Positions 3,001 through 64,000 of a DNA stretch of 64,000 bases are shown in pieces. The translations under genes were made by a program, and so were the position numbers. Every line of letters begins with the position of its first letter. Position 1 is the first letter of the stretch. The notes under the pieces were generated by a model. The model ran no database searches. It was not told the DNA's origin and saw only the letters and a list, made by a program, of their open reading frames with translations. This stretch comes from Antedon bifida. Taxonomy: Eukaryota > Echinodermata > Crinoidea > Comatulida > Antedonidae. Where the stretch lies: contig OY727102.1 in NCBI GenBank assembly GCA_963402885.1, forward strand, positions 11,966,001 to 12,030,000, in the 5' to 3' direction.

Positions 3001-3649
3001 AGTGCCATTATTTATGCAAATTGCTAAATACAGCATCACATGTGACTGCTTTACCTAACTTAAAAAATAATTCCTATGATATGTCAATATTGTGACGAAC
3101 ACGTGTTTGTATCATCTGAAAAATTAAGATACAGTACGAAGAATCGTGTAAATTTATTATAACTTTCTTATCAACAATATTTTTGTCATTATTTTTCTTC
3201 GTCATTTTTATATGATCAGAGTTATTAATATATAAGACCAAACAACAAGCGTTCAATATCGTCTCGTTACAAGTATACCATTGTAACCTAGTTGTATGAA
3301 CTTTGTATTGTATTGACGACCTATAAAACAATACTCATTAAGTTGTGGTGTTATTTAAATATATTACGCATTATTCACTTTCGTAAATAGTTGTTTTGTG
3401 TTGACGTGATAGAACGTACGTAAGTCATGCCCTATGCAAATGTGTCTGTGTATACAGCATGTGTTCTGTTACGTCATTTCTTCACAACGATATAAAAAAA
3501 GTTGATATATCGTGGATTGTGGCTTATGATTTAATCAAATAATTAACCAAAAGACCAATCGGATATCGTGGACAACTGACGCATGTGGAACATTATCAAT
3601 GAAATCGTGCGCGCGACGGGTTGCGCCTTGGTGCAAACAGAGTCCACGA
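1..3649. other. Region without a recognised gene
   Basis: I see no convincing coding exon here. The first 700 bases mix AT-rich sequence with CG-containing words (GCGCGCGC, GACGTC, ATCACGCG), unlike the CpG-poor DNA around them; this may be an old dispersed repeat, but I cannot name it. A perfect hairpin lies at 793-824. A degraded inverted-repeat remnant resembling the element at 40609 may lie near 1745-1880. The open frame at 2209-2541 on the plus strand has no domain-like features and I do not treat it as a gene. Confidence 0.5.
793..824. repeat. Perfect 13-bp hairpin
   Basis: AGGTGATCATTT (794-805) is followed by the six-base loop TATTCT and the exact reverse complement AAATGATCACCT (812-823); T793 and A824 add one more pair. 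There is no adjacent coding exon. It could be the centre of a small foldback element. Confidence 0.7.
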
Positions 3650-3892: not shown

Positions 3893-6800
3893 GAACTAAT
3901 TATCATGCATTCGTTCGTACGAAAGGCCGGCTATTATTTACGCTATTATTGCATTTGCCGCTTTATCGGTGTAAAAACTATTTCGGTTGCTCGAAAGGGG
4001 AGTGCAAGACAAAGAAACAGGGAGAGGAGTGTAGAGTTTAGGGTCATGATAAACAGTTCATGCATGATTACTGTAATAATGTATGCCATTATTGCATTCA
4101 GTAATTAAGATAACAAAAAAGAACATATAAAAAGAAAGTGATATTGGGAAGAAATTCATGTTAAATAACTATGTTTTGTCATTTAATGATATTCCTCTGT
4201 TTTATTGGGCCTATTTAAAAGTGAGTTAACATTTCTTTGTTAGCAACCTAAACATTCAGCACAGGGGAAAAACTAGGGGAAACACATTGTGAAATCCAAT
4301 GCAATAAATTTGTGCTAAATTATTACGATTTCAACTTATTTAACGCATGAAGTAAGATGTTATGTGCAACAACAAAAAAACTAGAAAGTAAAACCACTAT
4401 TGTCTGTCCTCCTTTAGTTTGAGTACACCCGCTTAAATTAGGCCTGACATCATAATTGCTCAAATAGCGCCGTGTTTTCCGGTTCGCGTACAAAAGGAGT
4501 GCTTAAAATGTGATTGTATCCCACATCACTTAACGGTATACAGCGCACTTGAGAACACCATAGTAACCCACAGTAATTTGCTTAGCTCAGTCGTGGAAAT
4601 ATCCTGGATTTATTACTGGCAAACCTATACACCATAATATCTTAGTGGACCATATAGCCTGCTAGCCTGCAAATGCGTAAGTCGTGCTTTGTTGTTTTTT
4701 TTAAATAATAATATAGAAATACTGTGTTCGAGTTTATTAAATTATTGGTTTAGCTGAAAATAAGTACGATGGGGCACAATTGCGATAAACAGTCATGAAT
4801 GTGTTATGCATTTTGGACTACTGAAGTATAATATTGCAATATGCCTTAATCCGAAAACGGGACATTTCGGAACTTAATAATAATAAACTCCGATCTTTAC
4901 CCCTTACCTTGATATTAATAATAATATTTAATAGACTCGGAGAGTACATAGAAGAGAGTTAATATGCTGGTAACTGAGTTTACATTAAACATTCGAAGTT
5001 GCATATATTAATGTGGTGAATAAAAAATACAGTAACTATAATTATTGAGTCGGTTCTATACCCGGAAAATAATGGTATACAATGTACTATGATACACGTC
5101 ATTGTATGCTGCTGTATTTCGCGATACAACACATGACTAAATCACATGTCATGGTATTGTTATGAATATGTACCGGTACGTCTTAAAATGATCCACGAAA
5201 AAGTGTTTCTTTATTTTAAAAGTGTAGGCCTTACTAAAACTAATCCAAGACTTGCACGTAATTAGAACCTTAACCAAGAAGGAACTGTTTCTAATTATTG
5301 TCAGAGTTGGTATCCTTAAGTGTTGATCTTTTTAGGTCTAATAACTGTTGGAATAATCTGATTGACCTAGAAATGGACATCCGTGTATAACGTACGTAGT
5401 ATATATAGCCTGCTATAATCTACAATGCGACTGTAATTCATGGTTTTCTTTGTTTAATTAATCAAAATTATTTATATAATCATTTTCTATGATTGCGAAT
5501 CAAAACTGTGATCTTCATTGATCGTCGGTATCACAATTTAATGGGCGTTGCCAAATACGGTTTTATTAATGGAGGTACCGTATGTTAATATCATCATTTC
5601 TCATCATCGGACCTCTGCTTCTTCAGTAAACTACTATCATATCATGATGGGCTGCAGGAGCGCGTGCACGCACATGCTTCATGGATGGGCACATTGTTAA
5701 CAGGCCTACTTAACGATGTCATTCATTTATCGAGGGACATGATAGGCCCCCTGTGTACATAGTGTCTCGTCTTGGTGTTCGCGGTTCGTACTTTGTTCTT
5801 CAGCAGTTTACATTCAATAAAACAATAATTTCCTGTTCTTAATTCACTCACTTGACACGTTTGAGTAACTACTCGTCGGATATATGATTCATAACACTTA
5901 CTTGGCAACACCCTTCTCTCAAAAAAAGAGGTAACCCTTTATAAAATGGGTAGATATACACTGTAAATTTAAGTTGCCACGCCCTCCCCCCTCTGTTATA
6001 ATCAAACGTGCGCCCTCTATTATTAATCAAAGTTGGCGTTAGACTTTCAAAGCGCGATTGTGCGGTTGTCGAAATGCTGTTTACTATCGTACTTTGTACC
6101 GTTGTGGCGGAAAAAGCTAAACTGCTTTACGTGTTTAACATAATCCTACGTGCACTATTAAATTACTATTCTACTCTGTAGTCAATTTAGGTGTATCCTG
6201 CAGTCCCGTCTGGTTCATGGTCCACTTATCTCTTGCGTTCATCAATCTTGTGAATATTAATTGGAAAAACGCGGATTCGTTTAAGTTATTCCCACGTCAG
6301 AAATGACAGCATTGACATACGAACTCCTGTTGTTGTGATAAATAATTTAACATTCAATACTTGATGTTCCTAACAAATACAGTAGTGCATCATTTATCTA
6401 TGTTGACTGTACAATTAGTTATGCTAAGCTACTTGTAACGTGGTGTGATGAACACAACATTCAATATAGCCTGTGATACAGGGCTTACAAAACTGGTAAA
6501 CTAACGTAAACACTTAGTATAGTACTAAAGTTCAACATTGGTTCATTCATTTTGTAAATTGTGTTATCTTTGATATTAGATAAAAGACCAACACGTATAA
6601 AACGTAAGTAGTTAAAAGGGAATATGAGAAAGTGTGTAAAGCCTAAAACTATACTGGCAATGATCATTGTAAAATAAATCGAAATGTTACTTCTCTTGGG
6701 TTCAGTGAAGATAAGGGGATTACATTAGCGTGATGGATGGCCAAGCTAACAAACGGATTAGACAATCTTGTTTATAGGCACGGTCGACGATTAATGATTT

Positions 6801-34500: not shown

Positions 34501-37500
34501 ACTGTATTCTATCAAACAATTACAGACAACTCAAGGCAAATCTAAGCATGTCCTATTTTATTCAATATAAAGTGAAAAAGATCTTCACTAATATATAAGT
34601 AATATTATTTGATATATTGCATGTGATACCAATGACAAGCGAAACATATTAGATTGTCAAATTGAAAGCAAAACAAAAATTAGAAATATAATAGTACATT
34701 TTATTAAAATAGATTTAAATATAATAGAAAGAAAATGAAGACCTATTTATTTTTTTTCTTTAATGAGCCTTTGTTAGTATATGTTTAGAGTCTACAGTGT
34801 GTACTAACACTATAGTGTCTTATAAACTCTTTCTAATTTTCATTCACTTTTTATTCCATATACGGTACTCATTTTTCCATCAATAGTAGTATAGTGGAGC
34901 TGTAGCTTGGTGGTTAACATTGCCTTCAAATTCCAGAGTTCACTCCTGACCAGTGCCAGGGTTGTAACTCACGACTCAACTTCACTCCCTAAGCCTCAAA
35001 TGAGACTTAGTTTATAAGCATGATAAATTATAAAATAGTTTGTCCATCCTGTAATTGGCAAGCTTGTGCTCGCTGTTGGATGCGTATAAAATAAAAAAAA
35101 TAAATAATAGTTCTTCTTCCTTCGATTGTGTTATGTTAGTAGTTAAACTTTTCACACATTGGTAGACAATGACATCGTTTTATTTTTGTGACATTTACGT
35201 AATACTCAATATTCATAACAGTAGTGTAGTTCTCATTAAAATAGTATAATTATCATTTTAATATTAGTAATTTGTTAGGCTTTATATATATAGCAACAGA
35301 ATAGATGAAAAGTGTTTACAATGTAATGTTTTTAAATAAAGCTGGCTGGTGCCATTTTACTTATTATTTGATAAATGTCAAATACTCTACCAAACTAGTT
35401 TGACGACAAAAAAAGTGTGATGTGCCCAAATATGGTAGTGATATGCTTAAATATGGTAGTGATATGACATTATCATGTCCATATGACCACATCACATTTT
35501 GTTGTCCCATAAAGTTTGATAGTGTAGGCAGAGCTTAAGATGTTTAAGGACACCCAACCTAGAGTATGCTACAAGATGCTTCTTGGGGAGGGGAGTGGGG
35601 GTAGGGCGATGCTAGTGATAACAATTGCCGAAATGGTCTTCAGAATACACTTTATACTAGCTAATCTTTTTCCAGCATAAATATAAATAAAATATATAAA
35701 TAGATACTGATTGTTGATTCAAAGGTACAGCATATCTCCTTTGCAGTATGTATCTTTTCCTATTTAATAGACATGTTACCAGTTGACACGCACACATACA
35801 ATTCAAATTACATTTGCTATAATTTAAGGAGACCATTGTGTCCAGTTTGATGTGTCCATGTACCAAAAATCAATTATCCTTGCATTCAATTTGTAAATAA
35901 AACATTATGGTACTAATAATAGTACTACCCTACTACCAGCCACACAATGACATTTAAATTGAAATAGAAATACCACAAAATGTACCACAAATAATGTTCA
36001 TTATACTCTGGTAGCTACTTAGCCATTTCTCTAGCCCACAATCCATAATTGTTATTTACAGTATAATAGCGTGAATTGATATTGCCAAAAAGGTCAAGCA
36101 TATCTAATAAAACTGGACCAGATTTTTATTTGTGACAATAATATGAGTTCACAGTTTTGTGTCTCACTACAAAGAAATTATAATAAAAATTGTTGAGATA
36201 GAGTCCAAACAAATGAAAAATAAAATTGCGTAAGAGCACCTTTCATTCACACATACTATTCTATAAGAAATAAAATCAAGTAAGAACACAACAAAAATAT
36301 ATAAATGAATAAAAATAGCTCAACCTCTTGTTATTGCTTATATAATACTGTATTTTACAGTTTCTACCAGTTCCTATTAACTGCTGTTCTTTATTTCTAA
36401 AAAAATAAGCACTCATTTACAACAAAAATAAATTGTTTGACATACCTAAATTTTTATATTATAACAATACTGTATACTGTACATTTAATAGTTAGTTGTT
36501 TTTTTTACTTATTATGACTTTGGTGCATCTAGTTGCTAAAACCATTTACATCCTGAACTGATATAAACACATTAACATTACATCATAGAATTTGGCATTC
36601 ATGAACATGAAATTCAAAGAAAATGAAAGTAAACATGGCAAGAAATTGATATTCTCCTCGTGTATCAAAACAAATTATAAACACTTTTGTCAAAAATAAT
36701 ATTATTTATAACACATATCTTTGCAATTTGATTGGTCGATTTTGTATCACATGGTATTGCTAATGTCATTCCATTCAATGGAAAAGTGATATTTAGTGGC
36801 CAGGTTGGTAAATAGGGACCTTTCGATTTTAAACTGTCAGTTCATTGTGCATGCGGAAATATTGGGACCTGTTACCGATACCAGTTCTTGGTTCATAAAA
36901 TGGCCTGCCTTCATGGTTTCTGGTGCATAATGGTTAACAGTTTCTATACAGTAGCAGTCACTTTCGTGACTGTCAGTTTTATTTCTGATTTTTATGCATA
37001 TAATTCTAAATAATCTGAATTCTTTTATTTCCTGTATCACATACTGCAAATCTTCCATTGTGTACAAACCCGATACCAGTGGGTTCATCAAATTGACCCT
37101 CCCCGCTACCATGAGTACCAAAGCAAGTCTCCATTGTTCCTGATGCATAGAATATTTGTATACGATGGTTACCGGTGTCTGCAACAATCACATATCCTTG
37201 CGGATCCACCGCAATGCCTGTTGGACTGTTCAGCTTTCCTGGTTCAGTACCCCAACCGCCAAATTTATAGAGAAATTTACCATCCGGCGTAAATACCTGC
37301 ACTAAATGTTTGAGAGAGTCTGTTACCATTAACTGGTTACCAGGAGTGAATGCGATGTGAGATGGTTTTTTAAACTGACCATCACCATCTCCACCTTGAC
37401 CAATCTGGCGTAAGAAAGTTCCATCTGATTTATATACCTTTACACATTGATTATTAGCATCGCAAATGTAGATATTCTCAAGACGGTCACTTACAATACC

Positions 37501-40500
37501 AATGGGGCTGCTAAGTTGTTGTGATGGATGTCCAGCACAACCAAATTCATTAACAAAATCACGTCCTGTATCCCATATTTGCACCCGATTATTCCCAGAG
37601 TCTGAAACTACAAATTGATTCCGTTTATTTAAGAAGAATGACTTTGGTTTTGAAAACTGGCCAGGTTTATTTCCCGTTGTGCCATAAGATTTTAATATTT
37701 GTCCGTCTGCAGTCAAAATGGCAATGGAATTATAATTCTCGTCAAGAACAGCAAGATTTGTGTTTGGAAGCGAAAGTAAAGCAACCGGTTTTGAAAATTT
37801 GATACCTCTTGAAGGACCCTCACCTAACACTTTGCAAGGATTGCCTCTCAGTCGGTAGTTAGGAGCAGCTGATGGTGAAATTGCAGATGCATTTGTTGTA
37901 GAGGTAACATGTGAAAGTTGTACATTTTGAGGGTCGTTTCTAACAAAAGTTTGGTGAGCTGGCAAACTTTGTGCAACAATGCTAACTGCTCCAGTTGACT
38001 GATGCCTTTGTAATGGACTAGAACTTCTTCTGTTTGTAACTGGGGGTGGTGGATTCAAAGCTGAACCAGCTGATGTGCGTCGTGAAAATGGATTAGTTGC
38101 TTGTGTTTGAAGATTAGGTTTTATCTGTGGCATCTGTCTTGAAACCTGAGGATTACTTTGATTAAATGATGGAGAACTTTGCAAGTGTTGTTCACTTGAG
38201 AAAGATTCCGATCGCCTTCTAGAATCAATCCCAGAGTCAAAGGATTGACTAGCACCAATACTGCTTAAAGAATTGCCAGAATCCCTGCGAGGTATTCCAA
38301 CAATTGTAGGGCTGTTAAAAGGATTTCCTGCAGACAGAGGTGATATTGATTGCTCAGTGTTTAAACTAGTATGAAGGCGATTAGCCAACTGTTCTGTTTG
38401 TATGTCTGACGTTATAGTGTGCATTGTTTGACCAGACAATCTGCCATCTGTGTTAGTGTGTGACTGATTTGATGTCACTGTTGCACTCCTGTTACTGTAA
38501 ATTTGTCCAAAGTTTGCAATTTCCTGAACAAGTTGCTCTTTTGAATCCTCGGTGTAACTCCATGACCATGACCCTTGACCCCTCATCTCCAGATTGTGTA
38601 ACTGCTGTAGATAATTCTTGCATTTTGCAACAATATTGTCCAAGTCTTCCTTTGAAGGCTGCTGATTGGCAGACATGACCGCTTGAATCTCATTCTGGAA
38701 ACTCTTCAGTAATTCCTGTGCTTGTTTGCTTTGTACCTGAAGGTGGCGCTTACCATCCTGTCTTTGCGCTTCTAACTGTGATACAAGAATGTTCTTCCGC
38801 GCTCGTACCTCGTTTACAACTTTTTCAAGTGAAGAATCAATCTGCCCTTTTGCGTACTGATAACTTTGTTCTAGTTTGTTCTCTTGAACATTTGTTTGGC
38901 TCAATGTGTTTACTTTTCCTTTCAACTGACTGATCAACGCAGAAATAGTCTGTCTTGTCTGAAGATTCACAGATTGTTGTGCCGTTAATGGTGATTCGGG
39001 AACTTGTTGCATGTTACTGCTCTGTTCACTCTTTCCTTGCAAATCAATCAGAGCAAACATAGTCAAGTTATTTGGAAATCCCTCAACACCTTTTCCAGCT
39101 ACAGGCAGAGGGACCTGTACACGACAGTTTGGACATTCAATGGCGTTGTTCTTTATTATCATATCCAGGCATGGCACACAGAATGTGTGTTGGCATGGTA
39201 GAAGTTTTGGTCGATGTCGGGTTGAGTCAAATATTTCAAGACACATTGGACATTCCAGGATATGAAGTATATCATCTGCCATCTTTCCAGATATCTAAAA
39301 AGATTAAAAAAAAGTAAATTATAATCTACTGTAAAATTCCCATAATACTACTGTGCTGACATACTGTCTATGATAAAATAATGTTAGTGTATACAGGGAG
39401 TATCACCTTATTTGCACAATGAACATAGCATTAGGTAATACCTAGTGTATAATACAGAAAACAGCGAAATGAAATTCCAAAATGAAATGTTATTCCCAAA
39501 GTACAGTGAAACTCACTGATCTGTATAATTTTCCTATAAACCATGTGGATGGCTCCCATGTGCAGTTGATGCGTTTAGTTAGTGATTGTACTGTACACTT
39601 GGTAAATTCATTATCCAAATATTTTAATTTATTTTATTTACTATTATCTATAGCCGGCCAGGAGTTTTCAAATGGTTAAAATCTTCTCTTTGCAAGCTTA
39701 AAAACCAAGTCTTTATTTTTGTTTTTTTAATTTAATTCTTCATTGTGTCTTGTCAAAGGAAATAAGATATTTAAAAATAATTTGAAGTAATTCCTTCATG
39801 TTATTATTATGTACAGTAGGATGTACTTTATATTTATGCTAATTATACAGAGTTGAAAGTGAAACAGATGAATACTGTAAACTCTGACATTTACTTACGT
39901 TTCATACAGTAGGCTACTACTGACAAAGTAAGTACGGTAGTAGGCTAAAATAATAATTAGTAAGGTTAGCGATACACCATGTGTTTCCAAGAAGGAAATC
40001 AGTAAAGTTGAGAATGTGACGTTTCAGTTCTTATTCTACAACTGTCTTCTGAAGTAATATCTAACAATCATATTATCGTTTTACAAATCAAGTGATTTCA
40101 ATCACATTCACAACTGATTTTTAGATTTTCCCCTCTCAAGGAAACAGGAAGTCATGCACTTCCTTCTGTGACCCAGGTCAATGATAAACAAGGTAACCAA
40201 GGGGAAAACAGTGACTTTATTTCATCATAAATTGTCTTTCGATTTCCTATGATCTTATTATATAGGTTCTTAATTCTACTAACTACAGTACTAAACTGCT
40301 GTATTTGGTGTAAATACCATTGTAAAATTAACTGACATTTCTATTTTACCTGCCAATACCATATCATGAATGAATTAAATTATTATGAAGAATTTATTTT
40401 CCCTTATTATACTGTATTACTGCAACCATTATTCTTATTTTCTTTCCTACAGTATACTCAAAATATGTTTTGACTTAATTACAATGCCCTATTCACCATA

Positions 40501-48039: not shown

Positions 48040-48610
48040 ATTCAAGTGCTGCACATGTATCTCTGCTGGTCCTGATCTCAACGGGCTGGTCCTGATCCAG
48101 GCAGGCTGGTCATATAATCTCTGCTGGTCCTGATCCAGACAGGCTGGTCCTGATCCAAGACAGGTTTGTCCGGATATAATCTTCTATACCCATGTCCATG
48201 TGCTGCACATATATCTCTGCTACTGATCCAGACAGGCTGGTCCTGATCCAGACAGGCTTGTCCTGATCCAGACAGGCTTGCCGGGATATAATCTGCTATA
48301 CCCATGTCCAAGTGCTGCACATGTATCTCTGCTAGTCCGGATATAATCTGCTATACCCGTGTCCAAGTGCTGCACATGTATCTCTGCTGGTCCGGATATA
48401 ATCTGCTATACCCGTGTCCAAGTGTTGCACATGTATCTCTGCTGGTCCGGATATAATCTGCTATACCCGTGTCCAAGTGCTGCACATGTATCTCTGCTGG
48501 TCCTGATCCCGATGGGCTAGTCCTGATCCAGGCAGGCTGGTCATATAATCTCTGCTGGTCCTGATCCCAATGGGCTGGTCCTGATCCAGGCGGGCTGGTC
48601 ATTATAATCT
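48040..48610. repeat. 55-bp minisatellite and TCCTGATCCAGACAGGCTGG-type repeats
   Basis: Units with GTCCGGATATAATCTGCTAT, then CCCGTGTCCAAGTGCTGCAC and ATGTATCTCTGCTG, are exactly 55 bp apart at 48335, 48390 and 48445. They are interspersed with about 20-bp repeats built on CTGGTCCTGATCC and CAGGCTGGTC. Two unit types are mixed in one array. Frames on the minus strand are not credible genes. Confidence 0.85.
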
Positions 48611-48625
48611 GCTATACTCGTATAC

Positions 48626-50100
48626 AAAGATATAATGCTACCTTACACATTATATAAAATGTATTTACCAAAAAATAACCTTATTTAATACCAAGATATA
48701 ATGTTACCTTACACATTATATAAATGCATTTGCCAAAAAATAACCTAATTTAATACCAAGATATAATGTTACCTTACACATTATATAAATGCATTTGCCA
48801 AAAAATAACCTGATTTAATACCAAGATATAATGTTACCTTACACATTATATAAATACATTTACCAAAAAATAACCTGATTTAATACCAAGATATAATGCT
48901 ACCTTACACATTATATAAATGCATTTGCCAAAAAATAACCTGATTTAATACCAAGATATAATGTCTTCCACATTATATAATACATTTACCAAAAAATAAC
49001 CTGATTTAATACCAAGATATAATGTTACCTTACACATTATATAAAATGCATTTACCAAAAAATAACCTGATTTAATACCAAGATATAATGCTACCTTACA
49101 CATTATATAAATAAATTTACCAAAAAATAACCTGATTTAATACCAAGATATAATGTTACCTTACACATTATATAAATGCATTTGCCAAAAAATAACCTGA
49201 TTTAATACCAAGATATAATGTTACCTTACACATTATATAAATGCATTTGCCAAAAAATAACCTGATTTAATACCAAGATATAATGTTACCTTACACATTA
49301 TATAAATGCATTTGCCAAAAAATAACCTAATTTAATACCAAGATATAATGTTACCTTACACATTATATAAATGCATTTGCCAAAAAAATAACCTGATTTA
49401 ATACCAAGATATAATGTTACCTTATACACATTATATAAATGCATTTGCAAAAAAATAACCTGATTTAATACCAAGATATAATGTTACCTTATACACATTA
49501 TATAAATGCATTTGCCAAAAAATAACCTGATTTAATACCAAGATATAATGCTACCTTACACATTATATAAATGCATTTACCAAAAAATAACCTGATTTAA
49601 TACCAAGATATAATGTTACCTTACACATTATATAAATGCATTTACCAAAAAAATTACCTGATTTAATACCAAGATATAATGCTACCTTACACAAATGCAT
49701 TTGCCAAAAAATAACCTGATTTAATACCAAGATATAATGTTACCTTACACATTATATAAAATACATTTACCAAAAAATAACCTGATTTAATACCAAGATA
49801 CAATGTTACCTTACACATTATATAAATGCATTTGCCAAAAAATAACCTAATTTAATACCAAGATATAATGCTACCTTACACATTATGTAAATACATTTAC
49901 CAAAAAATAACCTGATTTAATACCAATATATAATGTTACCTTACACATTATATAAATGCATTTGCCAAAAAATAACCTGATTTAATACCAAGATATAATG
50001 CTACCTTACACATTATATGAAATGCATTTACCAAAAAATAACCTGATTTAATACCAAGATATAATGTTACCTTACACATTAGATAAAATGCATTTACAAA
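48626..50100. repeat. 65-bp minisatellite array, about 22 copies
   Basis: The unit contains CCAAGATATAATGTTACCTT, then ACACATTATATAAATGCATT and TGCCAAAAAATAACCTGATT. CCAAG words at 48691 and 48756 give the 65-bp period. Copies differ by a few substitutions (T/C in ATGTTACC, A/G in TTTACC) and one-base A-run changes. It passes directly into the 75-bp array at its right end. Non-coding. Confidence 0.92.
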
Positions 50101-51300
50101 AACAATAAATATTATGCTAATAAGGAAAACAAACATGTAAATCATTATCATATTAAATAATAAAATACATACAAAAACAATCAATATTATGCTAATAAGG
50201 AAAATAAACCTGTAAATCATTAGCATATTAAATAATAAAATACATACAAAAACAATCAATATTATGCTAATAAGGAAAATAAACCTGTAAATCATTAGCA
50301 TATTTAATAATAAAATACATAGAAAAACAATCAATATTATGCTAATAAGGGAAAGAAACCTGTAAATCATTAGAATATTAATTAATAAAATACATAGAAA
50401 AACAATCAATATTATGCTAATAAGGAAAATAAACCTGTAAATCATTAGCATATTTAATAATAAAATACATAGAAAAACAATCAATATTATGCTAATAAAG
50501 GAAAGAAATCTGTAAATCATTAGCATATTAAATAATAAAATACATAGAAAACAACCAATATTATGCTAATAAGGGAAAGAAACCTGTAAATCATTAGCAT
50601 ATTAATTAATAAAATACATAGAAAAACAATCAATATTATGGTAATAAGGGACAGAAACCTGTAAATCATTAGCATATTAATTAAAAAAATATATTGAAAA
50701 ACAATCAATATTATGCTAATAAGGGAAAGAAAGCTGTAAATCATTAGCATATTAAATAATAAAATACATAGAAAAACAATCAATATTATGCTAATAAGGG
50801 AAAGAAACCTGTAAATCATTAGCATATTAAATAATAAAATACATAGAAAAATAATCAATATTATGCTAATAAGGGAAAGAAACCTGTAAATCTTTAGCAT
50901 ATTAAATAATAAAATACATAGAAAAATAATCAATATTATGCTAATAAGGAAAAGAAACCTGTAAATAATTAGCATATTAAATAATAAAATACATAGAAAA
51001 ACAATCAATATTATGCTAATAAGGGAAAGAAACCTGTATATCATTAGCATATTAAATAATAAAATACATAGAAAAACAATCAATATTATGCTACTAAGGG
51101 AAAGAAACCTGTAAATCATTACCATATTAATTTAAAAAATATATTGAAAAATAATCAATATTAAGCTAATAAGGAAAAGAAACCTGTAAATCATTACCAT
51201 ATTAATTAATAAAATACCTAGAAAAACAATCAATATTATGCTAATAAGGAAAAGAAACCTGTAAATCATTAGCATATTAATTAATAAAATACATATATCT
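50096..51300. repeat. 75-bp minisatellite array, about 16 copies
   Basis: The unit contains AAAACAATCAATATTATGCT, AATAAGGGAAAGAAACCTGT, AAATCATTAGCATATTAA and AATAAAATACATAG. Since about 75 bp equals 25 codons, the minus strand has long frames (50520-51125 and 49948-50526) with a hydrophobic 25-residue period containing IYRFLSLISIILIVF. Frame breaks and one- to three-base length changes occur between copies. I treat it as a repeat, not a gene. Confidence 0.9.
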
Positions 51301-51304
51301 ATGC

Positions 51305-51435
51305 TACATTCTCTCGATTTATCCAAGTGGACCAACAAGCAAGAGAAGCATACCTAAGAGAACATCTGTGGTCCATTTGGCCATCTCTCCTACAAAGTAT
51401 ACAAACTATATGCTCGCTAAGTGAGAGAGAATGTA
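51305..51435. other. Unique module with 11-bp perfect inverted ends between two arrays
   Basis: TACATTCTCTC (51305-51315) and GAGAGAATGTA (51425-51435) are exact reverse complements, with an inner imperfect pair (CCAAGTGGACC and GGTCCATTTGG). The module follows the last 75-bp unit. It may be a small MITE, possibly flanked by decayed target sites. Confidence 0.45.
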
Positions 51436-51700
51436 CCATGTATCGTGTCAATAGGGAGCCAAGAATTTAATTTTAGTCTACTATTTTTAGAAAATTGTTG
51501 TTTAAGGATATTCATCTTGTGACACATTTATTGTGTTGAATTATTTGATGATTATTGTTAGGTTATGTATATAAAATATTCTTTACCAATGATGGAACAT
51601 CATACTTACCCAACATAAATACTTACGAAATAGTGTCCTATCCAGTAGGAATTGTTTACAAAACAAACCATAGCTATCCAGCAAAAACTGTACAGAAAGA

Positions 51701-52026
51701 ACTGGATGAGTTAAATGTTGGATGCATCAATTGTCTTGTTATTGGGTGTACATCTTTACTGGATGAGTTAAATGTTGAATACATCACTTGTCTTGTCATG
51801 GGGTGTACATATTTACTGGATGAGCTGAATGTTGAATACATCACTTGTCTTGTCATGGGGTGTGCATCTTGACTGGATGAGTTGAATGTTGAATACATCA
51901 CTTGTCTTGTTTATGGGGTGTACATCTCGACTGGATGGTAATGTTGAATACATCACTTGTCTTGTCATGGGTGTACATCTTTACTGGATGAGTTAAATGT
52001 TGAATACATCACTTGTCTTGTCATGG
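51701..52026. repeat. 57-bp minisatellite, left segment
   Basis: About six copies of the same unit as in 55245-64000 (ACTGGATGAGTTGAATGTTG, AATACATCACTTGTCTTGTC, ATGGGGTGTACATCTTG). The segment is cut off at its right by the inverted-repeat element at 52027 and resumes beyond it. Confidence 0.92.
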
Positions 52027-52129
52027 TAGTTCGGTGGCAGGAGGGGGGAATCACCACCCGAAAGGGGACAAATTGCCATCCAACTTTTCTAGACCAGAAT
52101 TTTCCGTAGATTACGAATATGGAAGGTAA

Positions 52130-53150
52130 TCGATCAGGATAGGAAGCGTTTTCGAGATATAAGGGGTCAAAGTTCAAAATTGACCAATTTCAACAATGTA
52201 TTATGTATAATAACACATTTATTGAAGCCCAATTTGGTCTTTTATTACATTTTTATGATTATAAGTGTCTATTCAATCACCTTATAAAAAAAAATCCTTT
52301 GTAATTAAGGGTCAAATGTCAATATTGCCCAATCATAGAATGCACCTATAAAACCAAATAAAAACTTATATTTAATACAAATTGGATGTTTTCTCATCCT
52401 GTTAATCAATCATACGCAATGTAAAAGAGCGAATACATCATTTCATCAGTTGACATAAGGTCAATTTCATCAGTTGACCTAAGGTCAAAGGTCAACATTT
52501 TAATACACGTATTAGTTAACAAATAAATGCAAAGTTGTCCAAACTATGATATTGATGGTTTTACAAGTAATCAAATTATTTGATTAGTAAAGTTATGTTA
52601 TTTCATTATAATTTTGATTAATATAATTATAATACTGTATTTAATCAAATCAGACTTTGATCAGGATAGGAAGCGAATAGGAAGAGATAAGAGGTCAAAG
52701 TTCAAAATTGACCAATTATAACAATGTATTATTATATTATAACCAATTTATTGAAGTTCAATTTGGTCTTTTAATACATTTGGATGGTTATAGGTATCTA
52801 TTCAGTCGCCTTATAAAACAAATACTTTTCAATTAAAGGTCAAATGTCAATATTGACCAATCACACAATTTGCATATAAACCCAAATAAAAACTAACATT
52901 TAAGGCAAAATGTTATGTTTTATCATTCTGTTAATTAAGACATCTATCAATCATACACAATCAAAAGAGCACATTTATCATTACACAAGTTGACATAGGT
53001 CAAAGGTCAACATTTGAACAAGTGATATACTAAATAATGCAAAGTTATTCAAACTATGAGATCGATGTTCATAAATGTAATCACGTTATTTGATCAGTGA
53101 AGTTATGGTATTTTTATATTTTTTCTAGTGCGCATTATTTTAAATGTATT
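52130..53150. repeat. Internal diverged repeat, two units of about 540 bp
   Basis: GATCAGGATAGGAAGCG, GGTCAAAGTTCAAAATTGAC and CAATGTATTAT appear near 52132-52200 and again near 52668-52735. Similar downstream order (GGTCTTTTA, GGTCAAATGTCAATATTG, TTGACATAAGGTCAA) follows in each. The first unit includes the inner end of the left terminal inverted repeat, so the terminal sequence has been copied inwards. Confidence 0.7.
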
Positions 53151-53479
53151 AATATAATACTGTAAAATAAATAATAAAATTATTAATATTATTAATATTA
53201 TGACGGTTAAAATGTTATGATGTTAAAATGTTACGCTGACCTTCAATGATTTGCCACTATACAGGTGCATATATTAGGGCTACAATATTCGTTTTTGGAA
53301 AATAAACTACTATTCATCAGAACCAGAGAATACCAATTCGTACAGGATAGGGCATAGGCAGATCCAGGTGGCCAAACTCAATCCACAACTCACTACACAG
53401 ACAGACCACAATTTTTATATAGTCACAGATAGTTTGGCCGATACAGGAAAGGTTTCCTGTACACAAAAGATTCTAAAAT

Positions 53480-54330
53480 AACCCATATGGATTTGCCCGA
53501 ATGAACCCTCTAAGGACCCTTTTGGGATCTCTATGTGGTGTGCTACATAAGGCCCTGTATTAGAAATTAATATGGGGTAAATAGTTCATAGATGAACTAT
53601 GGAATAAAACTAAAATGTTCACCCTCAATCTTTAAATAACATTTATGGATTTGCCCAAATGAACCCAAGGGCCGATCCTTCATGGACCTTTCGGGGTTCT
53701 CTATGTGGGTCTACAAGAGACCCTATATTGGAAATACTGTATGTGGGGTGAAAATGTGGGTTCATAGAGATATAATAAATATCCCTGTGCGCCCTCGATC
53801 ATCCATAAGGAACATTTTATGGATTTGCCCAAATTAACCCAAGGGCCGGTCGTTCTCCATGGATGAACATTAAGCCCCATAATGGAAATATAAGGGGTGA
53901 CACTGCGAGTTCATATAGACAGGCGCGGCCCATGGAATAAAGCTGCCTGTGCACTCTCGATCCTTAAGGAATACTTATGGATTTGCCAAAATTAACCCCC
54001 TAAAGGCCGGTCCTCCATGGATGGACATTAAGCCCCATAATGGAAATATAAGGGGTGACAATGTGGGTTTATATAGACAGGCACATGGAATAAAGCTGCC
54101 TGTGCACTCTCGATCCTTAAGGAACCGATTTGGATTTTGCCTAAAATGAAACAACAGCAGGTCATCTGTATGTTCAGTTCTACATTTGGCCCCTATATCG
54201 GATCAATGCATTTGGCTACATAACTAAAACTGTGGGTTCCAATATTAAGCCATGGGGAAAGCCTGTCTGTGCACCCTCAATCCTTTTAAAAGGAACCCAT
54301 ATGGATTTGCCAAAATGAACCAAGGGTAAT
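53480..54330. repeat. Internal diverged repeat, six units of about 155-175 bp
   Basis: ATGGATTTGCC or a near match occurs at about 53487, 53645, 53819, 53977, 54131 and 54301. Each is followed by AATGAACC-type and CCATGGA-type words, and most by GGGGTGA and TGTGCNCTCGATCCTTAAGG. Units are much more diverged than those of the flanking minisatellite. Confidence 0.75.
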
Positions 54331-55244
54331 TTCTGAATTCTCTATGAACCGTACATTCCGTTTATTGGACATACATGGATACCTGAATGACATTTCTCAA
54401 ATGTTTCTGAAAGACATTGTACTGTATAGTAGTAGTATTCCCCTTCCACACCTCTTTGAATTAAATCCACCCCGATAGGCTCTTATGTACAGGATTTCAA
54501 AGCAATAATCACACTTGTATTTTTCAAGCAGTATAATCTATTAGATTGAATAAAAATATCTATTATAAACAATTTGCCGTTAGAAATCTCTATGCCATGT
54601 CGTTATTTAGATGAGAAAAACAGGTCAAAGGTTAAAATTACAAAAAAATAGTGTTTCAGTCACTTTTTGAAAAAAATGTTGCATTATGGCAAGTATAAAC
54701 ATATATATTGTGAACAATTTGATACCAAAATTGGCTCCTTACGACAAATATTTATTAATTTATGTTTTTATAACCTTATTCAATTATGTCAAAGGTTAAT
54801 AACCACACTTCCGGTCATTTTCAAGCAATATCATCTGTTACACTGAATATAAATGTATATCTTGGGAACAATTTGCTCCTATTTTTAATTCTCTCCGACC
54901 TGCCATTACTTAGATATAGCAAAAATAGGTCAAAGGTCAAAATTGCTAAAAATGGGGTTTCCGGTCAATTTTACAAAGAAAGTTCTGTTAGAGCTAATAT
55001 AAACATATACATTGTGAACAATTTGACACCAAAATTATCTCACTAGGTCCAGAATTTCCAGAGATATAGCATGTTTTTATATTGGTCAATTTTGAATTTT
55101 GACCCCTTATATCTCGAAAACGCTTCCTATCCTGATCGATTACCTTCCATATTCGTAATCTACGGAAAATTCTGGTCTGGAAAAGTTGGATGGCAATTTG
55201 TCCCCTTTCGGGTGGTGATATCCCCTTCTGCCACCGGACTATGG

Positions 55245-58200
55245 GGTGTACATCTTTACTGGATGAGTTAAATGTTGAATACATCAGTTGTCTTGTAATG
55301 GGGTGTACATCTTGACTGGATGAGTTGAATGTTGAATACATCATCTGTCTTGTTATGGGGTGTACATCTTGACTGGATGAGTTGAATGTAAAATACATCA
55401 CTTGTCTTGTCATGGGGTGTACATCTTTACTGGATGAGCTGAATGTTGAATACATCATCTGTCTTGTTATGGGGTGTACATCTTGACTGGATGAGTTGAA
55501 TGTTGAATACATCACTTGTCTTGTCAAGGGGTGTACATCTTTACTGGATGAGCTGAATGTTGAATGCATCACTTGTCTTGTCATGGGTGTGCATTTTGAC
55601 TGGATGAGTTGAATGTTGAATACATCACTTGTCTTGTTATGGGGTGTACATCTTTACCGGTTGAGTTGAATGTTAAATACATCACTTGTCTTGTCATGGG
55701 GTGTACATCTTGACTGGATGAGTTGAATGTTGAATACATCATTTTTCTTGTTATGGTGTACATCTTTACTGGATGAGTTGAATGTTGAATACATCACTTG
55801 TCTTGTCATAGGGTGTACATCTTTACTGGATGAGTTGAATGTTGAATACATCAGTTGTCTTGCTATTGGGTGTACATCTTGACTGGATGAGTTGAATGTT
55901 GAATACATCAATTGTCTTGTTATGGGGTGAACATCTTGACTGGATGAGTTGAATGCATCAGTTGTCTTGTCATGGGATGTACATCTTGACTGGATGAGTT
56001 AAATGTTGAATGCATCAATTGTCTTGTTATGGGGTGTACATCTTTACCGGATGAGTTGAATGTTGAATACATCACTTGTCTTGTCATGGGGTGTACATCT
56101 TGACTGGATGAGTTGAATGTTGAATACATCATTTTTCTTGTTATGGGGTGTACATCTTTACTGGATGTGTTGAATGTTGAATACATCACTTGTCTTGTCA
56201 TGGGGTGTACATCTTGACTGGATGAGTTGAATGTTGAATACATCAAGTGTCTTGTTATGGGGTGTACATCTTGACTGGATGAGTTGAATGTTGAATGCAT
56301 CAATTGTCTTGTTATGGGGTGAACATCTTGACTGGATGAGTTGAATGCATCAGTTGTCTTGTCATGGGATGTACATCTTGACTGGATGAGTTAAATGTTG
56401 AATGCATCAATTGTCTTGTTATGGGGTGTACATCTTTACTGGATGAGTTGAATGTTGAAATCATCACTTGTCTTGTCATGGGATGTACATCTTGACTAGA
56501 TGAGTTAAATGTTGAATGCATCAATTGTCTTGTTATGGGGTGTACATCTTTACTGGATGAGTTGAATGTTGAATACATCACCTGTCTTGTCATGGGGTGT
56601 ACATCTTGACTGGATGTGTTGAATGTTGAATACATCAATTGTCTTGTTATGGGGTGAACATCTTGATTGGATGAGTTGAATGTTGAATACATCACTTGTC
56701 TTGTCATGGGCTGTACATCTTCACTGGATGAGTTGAATGTTGAATACATCAGTTGTCTTGCTAATGGGGTGTACATCTTGACTGGATGAGTTGAATGTAA
56801 AATACATCACTTGTCTTGTCATGGGGTGTACATCTTTACTGGATGAGCTGAATGTTGAATGCATCACTTGTCTTGTCATGGGTTGTGCATCTTGACTGGA
56901 TGAGTTGAATGTTGAATACATCATCTGTCTTGTTATGGGGTGTACATCTTGACTGGATGAGTTGAATGTTGAATACATCACTTGTCTTGTCAAGGGGTGT
57001 ACATCTTTACTGGATGAGCTGAATGTTGAATGCATCACTTGTCTTGTCATGGGTGTGCATTTTGACTGGATGAGTTGAATGTTGAATACATCACTTGTCT
57101 TGTTATGGGGTGTACATCTTTACCGGATGAGTTGAATGTTAAATACATCACTTGTCTTGTCATGGGGTGTACATCTTTACTGGATGAGCTGAATGTTGAA
57201 TACATCATTTTTCTTGTTATGGGGTGTACATCTTGACTGGATGAGTTGAATGTTGAATACATCATTTTTCTTGTTATGGGGTGTACATCTTTACTGGATG
57301 AGTTGAATGTTGAATACATCACTTGTCTTGTCATAGGGTGTACATCTTTACTGGATGAGTTGAATGTTGAATACATCAGTTGTCTTGCTATTGGGTGTAC
57401 ATCTTGACTGGATGAGTTGAATGTTGAATACATCAATTGTCTTGTTATGGGGTGAACATCTTGACTGGATGAGTTGAATGCATCAGTTGTCTTGTCATGG
57501 GATGTACATCTTGACTGGATGAGTTAAATGTTGAATGCATCAATTGTCTTGTTATGGGGTGTACATCTTTACCGGATGAGTTGAATGTTAAATACATCAC
57601 TTGTCTTGTCATGGGGTGTACATCTTGACTGGATGAGTTGAATGTTGAATACATCATTTTTCTTGTTATGGGGTGTACATCTTTACTGGATGTGTTGAAT
57701 GTTGAATACATCACTTGTCTTGTCATGGGGTGTACATCTTGACTGGATGAGTTGAATGTTGAATACATCAAGTGTCTTGTTATGGGGTGTACATCTTGAC
57801 TGGATGAGTTGAATGTTGAATGCATCAATTGTCTTGTTATGGGGTGAACATCTTGACTGGATGAGTTGAATGCATCAGTTGTCTTGTCATGGGATGTACA
57901 TCTTGACTGGATGAGTTGAATGTTGAATGCATCAATTGTCTTGTTATGGGGTGAACATCTTGACTGGATGAGTTGAATGCATCAGTTGTCTTGTCATGGG
58001 GTGTACATCTTGACTGGATGAGTTGAATGTTGAATACATCAAGTGTCTTGTTATGGGGTGTACATCTTTACTGGATGAGTTGAATGTTAAATACATCACT
58101 TGTCTTGTCATGGTATGTACATCTTGACTGGATGAGTTGAATGTTGAATACATCACTTGTCTTGTCATGGGCTGTACATCTTCACTGGATGAGTTGAATG

Positions 58201-61200
58201 TTGAATACATCAGTTGTCTTGCTAATGGGGTGTACATCTTGACTGGATGAGTTGAATGTTGAATACATCACTTGTCTTGTCATGGGGTGTACATCTTTAC
58301 TGGATGAGCTGAATGTTGAATGCATCACTTGTCTTGTCATGGGGTGTGCATTTTGACTGGATGAGTTGAATGTTGAATACATCACTTGTCTTGTTATGGG
58401 GTGTACATCTTTACCGGATGAGTTGAATGTTAAATACATCACTTGTCTTGTCATGGGGTGTACATCTTGACTGGATGAGTTGAATGTTGAATACATCATT
58501 TTTCTTGTCATGGTGTACATCTTGACTGGATGAGTTGAATGTTGAATACATCACTTGTCTTGTCATGGGGTGTACATCTTTACTGGATAAGTTGAATGTT
58601 GAATACATCAGTTGTCTTGCTATTGGGTGTACATCTTGACTGGATGAGTTGAATGTTGAATACATCAATTGTCTTGTTATTGGGTGAACATCTTGACTGG
58701 ATGAGTTGAATGTATCCGTTGTCTTGTTATGGGGTGTACATCTTGACTGGATGAGTTAAATGTTGAATGCATCAATTGTCTTGTTATGGTGTGTACATCT
58801 TTACTGGATGAGTTGAATGTTGAATACATCACTTGTCTTGTCATGGGATGTACATCTTGACTGGATGAGTTAAATGTTGAATGCATCAATTGTCTTGTTA
58901 TGGGGTGTACATCTTTACTGGATGAGTTGAATGTTGAATACATCACTTGTCTTGTCATGGGGTGTACATCTTGACTGGATGAGTTGAATGTTGAACATAT
59001 CAGTTGTCTTGTCATGGGGTGTACATCTTGACTGGATGAGTTGAATGTTGAATACATCACCTGGCTTGTCATGGGGTGTACATCTTGACTGGATGAGTTT
59101 AATGTTGAATACATCAGTTGTCTTGCTATTGGGTGTACATCTTGACTGGATGAGTTTAATGTTGAATACATCACTTGTCTTGTCATGGAGTGTACATTTT
59201 GACTGGATGAGTTGAATGTCAAATACTCAGTTGTCTTGTTATGGGGTGTACATTTTTACTGGATGAGTTGAATGTTGAATGCATCACTTGTATTGTCATG
59301 GGGTGCACATCTTGACTGGATGAGTTGAATGTTGAATACATCAAGTGTCTTGTTATGGGGTGTACATCTTGACTGGATGAGTTGAATGTTGAATGCATCA
59401 ATTGTCTTGTTATGGAGTGTACATCTTTACCGGATGAGTTGAATGTTGAATACATCACTTGTCTTGTCATGGGGTGTACATCTTCACTGGATGAGTTGAA
59501 TGTTGAATGCATCACTTGTCTTGTCATGGGGTGTGCATTTTGACTGGATGAGTTGAATGTTGAATACATCACTTGTCTTGTTATGGGGTGTACATCTTTA
59601 CCGGATGAGTTGAATGTTAAATACATCACTTGTCTTGTCATGGGGTGTACATCTTGACTGGATGAGTTGAATGTTGAATACATCATTTTTCTTGTCATGG
59701 GGTGTACATCTTGACTGGATGAGTTGAATGTTGAATACATCATTTTTCTTGTCATGGGGTGTACATCTTGACTGGATGAGTTGAATGTTAAATACATCAC
59801 TTGTCTTGTCATGGGGTGTACATCTTGACTGGATGAGTTGAATGTTAAATACATCACTTGTCTTGTTATGGGGTGTACATCTTGACTGGATGAGGTGAAT
59901 GTTGAATACATCATCTGTCTTGCTATTGGATGTACATCTTTACCGGATGAGTTGAGTGTTGAATACATCACTTGTCTTGTCATGGGGTGTACATCTTTAC
60001 TGGATGAGTTGAATGTTGAATACATCAGTTGTCTTGCTATTGGGTGTACATCTTGACTGGATGAGTTGAATGTTGAATACATCAATTGTCTTGTTATGGG
60101 GTGAACATCTTGACTGGATGAGTTGAATGCATCAATTGTCTTGTTATGGGTTGTACATCTTTACTGGATGAGTTGGATGTTGAATACATCACTTGTCTTG
60201 TCATGGGATGTACATCTTGACTGGATGAGTTAAATGTTGAATGCATCAATTGTCTTGTTATGGGGTGTACATCTTTACTGGATGAGTTGAATGTTGAATA
60301 CATCACTTGTCTTGTCATGGGGTGTACATCTTGACTGGATGAGTTGAATGTTGAATACATCAGTAGTCTTGTTAATGGGGTGTACATCTTGACTGGATGA
60401 GTTGAATGTTGAATACATCAATTGTCTTGTTATGGGGTGTACATCTTGACTGGATGAGTTGAATGTTGAATGCATCAATTGTCTTGTTATGGGGTGTACA
60501 TCTTGACTGGATGAGTTGAATGTTGAATACATCACTTGTCTTGTCATGGGATGTACATCTTGACTGGATGAGTTGAATGTTGAACATATCAAGTGTCTTG
60601 TTATGGGGTGTACATCTTGACTGGATGAGTTGAATGTTGAACATATCAGTTGTCTTGTCATGGGGTGTACATCTTGACTGGATGAGTTGAATGTTGAATA
60701 CATCACCTGGCTTGTCATGGGGTGTACATCTTGACTGGATGAGTTTAATGTTGAATACATCATCTGTCTTGTTATGAGGTGTACATCTTGACTGGATGAG
60801 TTAAATGTTGAATACATCACTTGTCTTGTCATGGAGTGTACATTTTGACTGGATGAGTTGAATGTCAAATACTCAGTTGTCTTGTTATGGGGTGTACATT
60901 TTTACTGCATGAGTTGAATGTTGAATGCATCACTTGTATTGTCATGGGGTGCACATCTTGACTGGATGAGTTGAATGTTGAATACATCAATTGTCTTGTT
61001 ATGGGGTGTACATCTTGACTGGATGAGTTGAATGTTGAATGCATCAATAATTGTCTTGTTATGGGGTGTACATCTTTACTGTATGAGTTGAATGTTGAAT
61101 ACATCAGTTGTCTTGTCATGGGGTGTACATCTTGACTGGATGAGTTGAATGTTGAATACCTCACTTGTCTTGTCATGGGGTGTACATCTTTACTGGATGA

Positions 61201-64000
61201 GTTGAATGTTGAATACATCAGTTGTCTTGCTATTGGGTGTACATCTTGACTGGATGAGTTGAATGTTGAATACATCAATTGTCTTGTTATGGGGTGAACA
61301 TCTTGACTGGATGAGTTTAATGCATCAGTTGTCTTGTCATGGGATTTACATCTTGACTGGATGAGTCAAATGCTGAATGCATCAATTGTCTTGTTATGGG
61401 GTGTACATCTTTACTGGATGAGTTGAATGTTGAATACATCAATTGTCTTGTTATGGGGTGAACATCTTGACTGGATGAGTTGAATGCATCAGTTGTCTTG
61501 CCATGAGGTGTACATCTTGACTGGATGAGTTGAATGTTGAATACATCTCTTGTCTTGTTTATGGGGTGTACATCTTGACTGGATGAGTTGAATGTTGAAT
61601 ACATCAGTTGTCTTGTTATGGGGTGTACATCTTGACTGGATGAGTTGAATGTCAAATACTCAGTTGTCTTGTTATGGGGTGTACATCTTGACTGGATGAG
61701 TTGAATGTTGAATGTATCAATTGTCTTATGGGGTGTACATCTTGACTGGATGAGTTGAATGTTGAATACATCAGTTGTCTTGTTATGGGGTGTACATCTT
61801 GACTGGATGAGTTGAATGTTGAATACATCAGTTGTCTTGTTATGGGGTGTACATCTTGACTGGATGAGTTGAATGTTGAATGCATCAATTGTCTTATGGG
61901 GTGTACATCTTGACTGGATGAGTTGAATGTTGAATACATCAATTGTCTTGTCATAGGGTGTACATCTTGACTGGATGAGTTGAATGTCAAATACTCAGTT
62001 GTCTTGTCATGGGGTGTACATCTTTACTGATGAGTTGAATGTTGAATACATCACTTGTCTTGTCATGGGGTGTGCATTTTGACTGGAAGAGTTGAATGTT
62101 GAATATATCAGTTGTCTTGTCATGGGGTGTACATCTTGACAGGATGAGTTGAATGTTGAATACATCAGTTGTCTTGTTATGGAGTGTACATCTTGATTGG
62201 ATGAGTTGAATGTTGAATACATCAGTTGTCTTGTTATGGGGTGTACATCTTGACTGGATGAGTTGAATGTTGAATGCATCAATTGTCTTATGGGGTGTAC
62301 ATCTTGACTGGATGAGTTGAATGTTGAATACATCAGTTGTCTTGTTATGGGGTGTACATCTTGACTGGATGAGTTGAATGTTGAATACATCAGTTGTCTT
62401 GTTATGGGGTGTACATCTTGACTGGATGAGTTGAATGTTGAATGCATCAATTGTCTTATGGGGTGTACATCTTGACTGGATGAGTTGAATGTTGAATACA
62501 TCAATTGTCTTGTCATAGGGTGTACATCTTGACTGGATGAGTTGAATGTCAAATACTCAGTTGTCTTGTCATGGGGTGTACATCTTTACTGATGAGTTGA
62601 ATGTTGAATACATCACTTGTCTTGTCATGGGGTGTACATCTTGACAGGATGAGTTGAATGTTGAATACATCAGTTGTCTTGTTATGGAGTGTACATCTTG
62701 ATTGGATGAGTTGAATGTTGAATACATCACTTGTCTTGTCATGGGGTGTACATCTTGACTGGATGAGTTTAATGTTGAATACATCATCTGTCTTGTTATG
62801 AGGTGTACATCTTGACTGGATGAGTTAAATGTTGAATACATCACTTGTCTTGTCATGTGGTGTACATCTTTACTGGATGAGCTGAATGTTGAATACATCA
62901 CTTGTCTTGTCATGGAGTGTACATTTTGACTGGATGAGTTGAATGTCAAATACTCAGTTGTCTTGTTATGGGGTGTACATTTTTACTGGATGAGTTGAAT
63001 GTTGAATGCATCACTTGTATTGTCATGGGGTGCACATCTTGACTGGATGAGTTGAATGTTGAATACATCAAGTGTCTTGTTATGGGGTGTACATCTTGAC
63101 TGGATGAGTTGAATGTTGAATGCATCAATTGTCTTGTTATGGAGTGTACATCTTTACCGGATGAGTTGAATGTTGAATACATCACTTGTCTTGTCATGGG
63201 GTGTACATCTTCACTGGATGAGTTGAATGTTGAATGCATCACTTGTCTTGTCATGGGGTGTGCATTTTGACTGGATGAGTTGAATGTTGAATACATCACT
63301 TGTCTTGTTATGGGGTGTACATCTTTACCGGATGAGTTGAATGTTAAATACATCACTTGTCTTGTCATGGGGTGTACATCTTGACTGGATGAGTTGAATG
63401 TTGAATACATCTTTACCGGATGAGTTGAGTGTTGAATACATCACTTGTCTTGTCATGGGGTGTACATCTTTACTGGATGAGTTGAATGTTGAATACATCA
63501 GTTGTCTTGCTATTGGGTGTACATCTTGATTGGATGAGTTGAATGTTGAATACATCAATTGTCTTGTTATGGGGTGAACATCTTGACTGGATGAGTTGAA
63601 TGCATCAATTGTCTTGTTATGGGGTGTACATCTTTACTGGATGAGTTGGATGTTGAATACATCACTTGTCTTGTCATGGGATGTACATCTTGACTGGATG
63701 AGTTAAATGTTGAATGCATCAATTGTCTTGTTATGGGGTGTACATCTTTACTGGATGAGTTGAATGTTGAATACATCACTTGTCTTGTCATGGGGTGTAC
63801 ATCTTGACTGGATGAGTTGAATGTTGAATACATCAGTAGTCTTGTTAATGGGGTGTACATCTTGACTGGATGAGTTGAATGTTGAATACATCAATTGTCT
63901 TGTTATGGGGTGTACATCTTGACTGGATGAGTTGAATGTTGAATGCATCAATTGTCTTGTTATGGGGTGTACATCTTGACTGGATGAGTTGAATGTTGAA
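55245..64000. repeat. 57-bp minisatellite, main array (runs off the window)
   Basis: About 150 copies of a 57-bp unit: CATGGGGTGTACATCTTGAC, TGGATGAGTTGAATGTTGAA and TACATCACTTGTCTTGT. Because 57 equals 19 codons, the minus strand is open over many stretches with the periodic peptide MYSTFNSSSQDVHPMTRQV. Common variants are Y/H, Q/K, M/I and V/L, all from single-base changes. Frames are broken repeatedly by shortened units (for example TTGAATGCATCA, lacking about 18 bases, and one-base losses in the G run), the longest frame being 288 codons (59219-60085). No signal peptide, splice site or unique flanking domain is seen, so I call this satellite DNA. Larger duplicated blocks are visible. Confidence 0.93.

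Follow-up and report, generated by a model that had tools for sequence, protein, structure and literature searches.

Satellite-like repeats carried by transposons are well known, as the descriptions of Tetris (PMC4079207) and Cg_HINE (PMC7492417) and a table of further elements (PMC9659126) illustrate. Tetris, a foldback element of Drosophila virilis, is described as non-autonomous, with inverted arms and internal units of variable number, and its internal repeat and outer arm have a stretch of 37 bp in common (PMC4079207). For Galileo and Tetris, the authors of that study put forward the idea that the repeats act as extra binding sites (PMC4079207). The Cg_HINE elements of Pacific oyster are non-autonomous Helentrons with satellite-like central repeats; related repeats are common to several of these elements, and two types of array are sometimes present in one element (PMC7492417). 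Pearl, Xstir, miDNA4 and other MITEs with internal repeats are listed as non-autonomous elements of class II, with a connection between their repeats and satellites (PMC9659126). Furthermore, HNF4 (DR1) sites are reported in Alu, a mobile repeat that multiplies receptor sites (PMC3252374).

In this study, we analyzed an element from Antedon bifida in a stretch of 64,000 nucleotides (hereafter, the window). This element resembles Tetris in being non-autonomous, in its inverted arms and in its internal units of variable number; the stretch common to the internal repeat and arm is ~62 bp. In contrast to Tetris, for which duplications of 8–10 bp, repeats inside long arms and free satellite arrays are described (PMC4079207), it has 3-bp duplications and repeats between short arms, and no free array was seen for its zone B (see below). 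As in Cg_HINE, satellite-like repeats lie within a mobile element and related repeats occur in several elements; however, Cg_HINE is described with subterminal inverted repeats, a 3′ palindrome and a microsatellite (PMC7492417), whereas long terminal inverted repeats (TIRs) and 3-bp duplications are found here. The DR1 consensus is the same as that described in Alu (PMC3252374). Alu is a human retrotransposon, whereas here the box lies in tandem modules of DNA transposons. In the open-licence literature (Repbase lay outside this scope), we met neither this family, nor the combination of TAGTCC ends with 3-bp duplications, nor a DR1 module common to different families. The element bears on an open question, namely the exchange of parts between tandem repeats and transposons.

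The element and its insertion site

An insertion of 3215 bp is present at positions 52027–55241 of the window. Its ends are TAGT...ACTA, and its arms are inverted and nearly identical: in a BLAST comparison, element positions 1–167 matched positions 3215–3050. The features of the insertion site are as follows.

52027..52193, forward strand: left arm, starting with TAGTTCGGTGGCAG (family majority, TAGTCCGGTGGCAG); 94.6% identity with the inverted right arm
55076..55241, reverse strand: right arm, ending with CTGCCACCGGACTA; its tip is that of the 158 exact occurrences in the genome
52024..52026, no strand: left copy of the target duplication, TGG; joining the empty site restores the 57-bp array
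55242..55244, no strand: right copy of the target duplication, TGG; joining the empty site restores the 57-bp array
51701..64000, no strand: host 57-bp minisatellite, broken by the element and running on to the window end

When the element and one TGG were taken out, the joined 240 bp matched themselves at a period of 57 bp by 70%, and at the 14 other periods tested (50 to 64 bp) by 19–36%. Copies of the host array at 51970 and 55245 are spaced by 3275 bp, which is 3218 + 57 bp. Thus, the original prediction of nearly identical arms of about 160 bp, bounded by TGG on both sides in a host array that resumes in register, was borne out. When the remainder of the window was searched with the element by BLAST, nothing matched at E < 1e-3. 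Therefore, the host minisatellite did not arise from the element. This minisatellite is the last of four successive tandem arrays at 48065–64000 (a mixture of 20-, 55- and 58-bp repeats, and then arrays of 65, 75 and 57 bp); it is longer than 12 kb and runs off the window.

No open reading frame of at least 100 amino acids lies wholly within the element in the window. Ten of the 21 listed frames of at least 50 amino acids were compared with Pfam, and no match was obtained at E 0.01. The expected lack of a transposase inside the element agrees with these results. Elsewhere in the window, the reverse strand at 37006–39294 contains an open frame of 762 amino acids with matches to RING and NHL repeats, which is TRIM-NHL-like.

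The family, its target duplications and the search for a transposase

The genome searched comprises 315.6 Mb in 27 contigs, and the window lies on contig C15. The arm search gave 378 candidates, and all of the 40 that were scored showed 98–100% identity. The 14-bp tip occurs 158 times exactly (76 + 82), and its reversed sequence, used as a control, once (1 + 0). In only 6 of the 158 tips is the base after position 14 other than G; one of these (L082) resembles a degenerate arm with an insertion. Among 20 tip singletons, 17 are accompanied by the arm, or an inner part of it, of the family or a subfamily. At L064, L067 and L070, the likeness extends only 17–23 bp beside the tip. Therefore, not all of the 158 tips belong to whole elements. 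L064 rejoins the family match further in, and in L070 an interior stretch of 45 bp matches. Because the same ends are present in many independent copies, it is unlikely that the element is an assembly artefact.

Twenty copies were fetched, and both arms were found in 19 of them. Identical 3-bp flanks were present in 18 of these 19, and also at the window copy and at two longer copies (L051 and L052). L044 was left out of the count because its right arm is without the outer ~29 bp. Overall, 21 of the 23 copies read at both ends have 3-bp duplications, and the duplicated sequence is varied. Two elements are without a duplication: L034 (flanks TAT/TGT) and L076 (TAC/ATA), a diverged relative with both ends.

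A majority sequence of 3282 bp was derived from the 20 copies. In 19 of the 20 rows, the divergence from it is 0.5–1.7%; L045 (6.4%) was left out of this range because a misaligned deletion inflates the figure. The median pairwise divergence is 1.88% without L045 and 1.91% with it. Given this small difference among copies, the burst of the family was recent, in line with the real and fairly recent insertion that had been predicted. Among the checks that the original prediction had named, the arm was found elsewhere in the genome and 3-bp duplications were found at many copies, and the search for an autonomous relative with these arms gave none, as described below.

Two of the longer copies have further features. 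L051 (C10:7620900–7627600) is a family copy within a gag-like retroelement frame with a zinc knuckle, as judged by eye; its duplication is CAC, and it holds an internal insertion of ~2.4 kb. L052 contains two nested insertions (1490–3086 and 4961–6791 of the locus), the second of which is bounded by 32-bp perfect inverted repeats, and the copy sits in a 65-bp minisatellite. Among the 31 sites with flanks tested by TRF (L001–L030 and L052), an array adjoins two.

Among the flanks of 50 non-redundant insertions, 45 have A/T at the center of the triplet (background 65%, P = 5e-5). There are 23 different triplets, and TWA accounts for 8 of the 50. Around the site (n = 50), C is found at −4 in 20 cases, T at −3 in 28, A/T at −2 in 45 and A at −1 in 25. 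Inverted terminal repeats with precise ends and a target duplication of constant length (here 3 bp in 21/23) are features of class II TIR transposons. The duplications of Harbinger are TWA, those of Academ are of 3–4 bp, and Helentrons and HINEs are not known to possess terminal inverted repeats together with a target duplication. Helentron/HINE was rejected on the long TIRs and 3-bp duplications. A foldback element was rejected because the arms are only ~165 bp and the repeats lie between the arms rather than in them. The length of the duplication is compatible with Academ; we know of no profile for the Academ transposase, and the DUF6589 profile, guessed for Academ, gave one match, which was below the cut-off and separated by about 98 kb from the closest of the listed tips. 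CAC...GTG ends are reported for Chapaev (CMC) and TWA duplications for Chapaev3 (PMC4079192); the ends TAGT...ACTA differ from the former, and both were rejected. Zator is described with an ISAzo13-like transposase and 3-bp duplications (PMC10045372). In the Zator test, PF07592 gave 0 matches in the genome and 0 in the 14 controls.

A further candidate is a PIF/Harbinger (PHIS) derivative with a relaxed target and a C|TWA|G-like preference, which would be moved by a DDE_Tnp_4 transposase of the genome. The bases favored around the site (C at −4, T at −3, A/T at −2 and A at −1) are consistent with such an origin, and DDE_Tnp_4 is abundant: 150 matches were scored out of 215 candidates, many of them in open frames of 200–400 amino acids. 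However, the new PHIS groups are described with patterned target duplications (ANT, CWG or TNA) and start with AG, GG or GGG (PMC4482050), whereas this element starts with TAGT, TWA is found at only 8 sites and the 23 different triplets show no such pattern. Moreover, on five contigs with 98 listed tips, only 1 of 105 DDE_Tnp_4 matches is less than 10 kb away from a tip, and it lies on the outer side of that tip. Membership of PIF/Harbinger or PHIS as defined by a patterned duplication was rejected, and we consider the relaxed derivative quite improbable. As in the original prediction, no known superfamily could be assigned; Chapaev, PHIS, Helentron and foldback each failed on a tested feature, and Zator and Academ are still candidates.

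Sixteen DDE_Tnp_4 matches at C8:21.52–22.20 Mb have near-equal scores and one TAA inside each, and two further matches of the same kind are present at C8:11181838 and C22:35569. The match list indicates that, in the C8 cluster within 0.7 Mb, a single transposase relic was amplified locally.

Tip pairs, singletons, further loci and profiles gave no autonomous relative with these arms. Among the first 100 places listed, the exact tip pairs of greatest length (6.1 and 6.7 kb) proved to be members of the same family with nested insertions. In seven loci that were read further, no transposase was seen by eye among the frames of at least 110 amino acids, and several of the loci contain frames that are retroelement-like. 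The profiles PF07592, PF20231 and PF13359 gave no link to the family. No transposase source was found, so that mobilization in trans is an inference. The element is very probably a non-autonomous class II DNA transposon of ~3.2 kb, presumably mobilized in trans, which is built from tandem modules and leaves 3-bp duplications with a weak site preference. A transposase supplied in trans by another element would bind the tips of the arms.

Internal tandem zones and changes in unit number

The original prediction of three internal zones, each made of diverged tandem segments, holds for the window copy as well as for the majority sequence of 20 copies. The features of the window copy are as follows.

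52132..53123, no strand: zone A, segments 52132–52615 and 52659–53123 of ~530 bp each, 77.6% identity by self-BLAST
53436..54346, no strand: zone B, tandem units of ~158 bp, their number differing among family copies
54494..55094, no strand: zone C, two segments of ~300 bp built of units of ~141–164 bp
52482..52494, forward strand: DR1-like box in zone A, exact AGGTCAAAGGTCA
52997..53009, forward strand: DR1-like box in the second segment of zone A, exact AGGTCAAAGGTCA
54927..54939, forward strand: DR1-like box in zone C, exact AGGTCAAAGGTCA

The corresponding features of the majority sequence are as follows.

1–172 and 3109–3282: arms
106–1107: zone A, two segments of ~530 bp at 77%
1420–2386: zone B, units of ~158 bp
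2533–3133: zone C, two segments of ~300 bp, of ~141–164-bp units

Together, the three zones make up about 78% of the majority sequence. As predicted, one of them copies the inner end of the arm: in the boundary alignment of the majority sequence, the second segment of zone A opens with a copy of the inner ~62 bp of the arm. Zone C extends about 19 bp into the right arm at its inner end. When the box was cut out, the pairs of zone C units gave z-scores of 4.8–12.7. In the subfamily of L044, L045 and L083, zone A is joined straight to zone B, and about 980–1650 of the majority sequence is missing; members of this subfamily are present at several sites.

The length of zone B changes among the copies. 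Compared with the majority sequence, L032 and L048 have an additional 155 bp, and L046 and L049 are shorter by 158 bp. An identical stretch of 174 bp is absent from L037 and L041, which differ from each other by only 0.23% and lie on C9 (duplication CTC) and C7 (duplication AAA), respectively. Because these two copies are alike at different places, either an array that had already changed was carried to another site or a changed source gave rise to both. A triplicated stretch of ~120 bp is common to L018 and L030. Counted with one anchor motif, zone B has from at least 3 to at least 8 units per copy; these counts are lower bounds because wide gaps show that the motif misses units. Unequal exchange or slippage may alter the number of units. 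Thus, a young family shows both a change of array length within the element and a changed array common to copies at different sites.

The original prediction also held that such an element could spread satellite seeds through the genome. If this were the case, units would leave the element and grow into satellite arrays of their own, for which Tetris of D. virilis is a precedent (PMC4079207); the changes of unit number within copies speak in its favor. The zone-B unit search gave 143 matches around 40 loci, which were scored out of 130 candidates. Of these matches, 107 had E < 1e-30; they stand singly at 1 locus and in runs of 2 at 22 loci, 3 at 10 loci, 4 at 3 loci and 5 at 4 loci, and no long zone-B satellite was seen at these 40 loci. 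Strong-run scoring leaves out weaker units (L051 has at least 8 units and a strong run of 5), the search skips very common words, and arrays can collapse in assemblies. At 35 of the 40 loci, a listed family tip or arm lies within 4.5 kb, and on the five contigs for which the tips are fully listed this was the case for 25 of 25 loci. Therefore, as far as the search reached, the zone-B units stay within the transposon. Tandem cargo is indeed carried to new sites, but the seeding of free arrays is very unlikely in view of the short runs of zone-B units at the 40 loci scored.

A module with a DR1-like box in other repeats, one of them with TAGTCC tips

Zones A and C contain ten boxes like AGGTCAAAGGTCA with two or fewer mismatches, some of them at the inner ends of the two arms; in 200 shuffles, the mean was 0.055 and the maximum 1. 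In the genome, AGGTCAAAGGTCA occurs 1962 times exactly (960 + 1002) and the reversed control 18 times (10 + 8), a difference of 109-fold. Zones A and C have the box in common, and no other similarity between them was detected. The box is that of the DR1 consensus AGGTCAaAGGTCA, to which HNF4 is reported to bind (PMC3252374). The repeated inner segment of the arm and the boxes of zones A and C may serve as extra binding sites or as sites for host factors.

From the listed exact-box matches on C1, we reached L086, L087 and linked loci. L086, the best other TAGTCC element, is a near-perfect palindrome of 1566 bp with the ends TAGTCCATGGG and three box-bearing units of ~141 bp per arm; its flanks are TTG/TAG, without a duplication. 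L087 contains three boxes spaced by 141 and 180 bp, and no inverted arms were found in its 1.1 kb. With the box included, zone C shows 67–69% identity with L086 and L087 (E 1e-16 to 7e-18). A third family with TAGTCC tips was read only at its ends, L090 and L091, where TAGTCCAGTTCCCTATGT is found on both sides with the flanks TTA/TTA; between these ends there are box pairs. Because L086 has no duplication, the link between the families rests on the six letters of the tip, the modules and the single TTA/TTA case.

One explanation of these matches is that an older tandem module of ~145 bp was captured by several transposons, so that the cargo predates the elements and rides on them. Related modules in L086, L087 and sequence that was not selected by the box are consistent with such a capture, as are box triples with the 141/180-bp spacing, of which C1 has several. 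However, the TAGTCC-ended families could equally derive the module from a common ancestor, and no free long array was seen in the zone-B search, in which 40 of 130 candidates were scored. Capture is therefore possible, although we regard it as somewhat doubtful. The recurrence of one of its repeat types in other repetitive sequences of the genome, in one case with the same tips, suggests that tandem repeats may move between elements as spare parts; TAGTCC-tipped elements would have exchanged or inherited these modules.

Because the exact box was the selection criterion for loci of the L086 type, only sequence chosen in another way bears on the conservation of the box. When the box was masked, module matches were found in L077, L081 and L084, the sequences of which had been fetched for other reasons, and the reversed-sequence control gave 0. 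These results, like the likeness of zone C to L086 and L087, show that internal units match tandem units elsewhere; the original prediction had named a check of this kind, for satellites. In five units that were found through a different stretch of the module, the box has 2, 1, 1 and 2 mismatches in four and is absent from one. The identity of the whole module with zone C is about 58–74%. That the box was kept in four of five unselected units is suggestive of conservation; the units are too few for a test.

The element may also be an ordinary MITE-like element in which the repeats are passive and the 13-bp box reflects common descent only. Internal repeats are listed for many non-autonomous elements (PMC9659126), the box was lost from one of the five anchored units, and other blocks of the module, for example that around GAGATAT, appear by eye to be conserved as well. 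Against passive repeats, the four units, although few, keep the box with two or fewer mismatches in 13 positions at a module identity of about 58–74%, and the box is the sole likeness detected between zones A and C. On balance, passive repeats are quite possible, falling just short of being probable.

The boldest reading, which we consider unlikely, is that a group of transposons, marked by TAGTCC tips and duplications of 3 bp, is built from a portable ~145-bp module with the DR1 box AGGTCAAAGGTCA. This module would cross between families and would be retained because the box is bound, whether by a transposase that the families share or by an HNF4/RXR-type host receptor, and the transposons might thereby have spread much of the ~1960 exact DR1 sites of the genome. 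A module that carries a nuclear-receptor box across different repeats offers a concrete test of whether the cargo is passive, aids transposition or alters host regulation.

A fourth family with inverted arms, read short of its ends, is represented by L088/L089 and L092/L093. The masked module match in L077 lies inward of a family arm, and those in L084 and L081 lie in the outer flanks. A further module match of 39 bp, found in L074 and L081, corresponds to one place in the genome.
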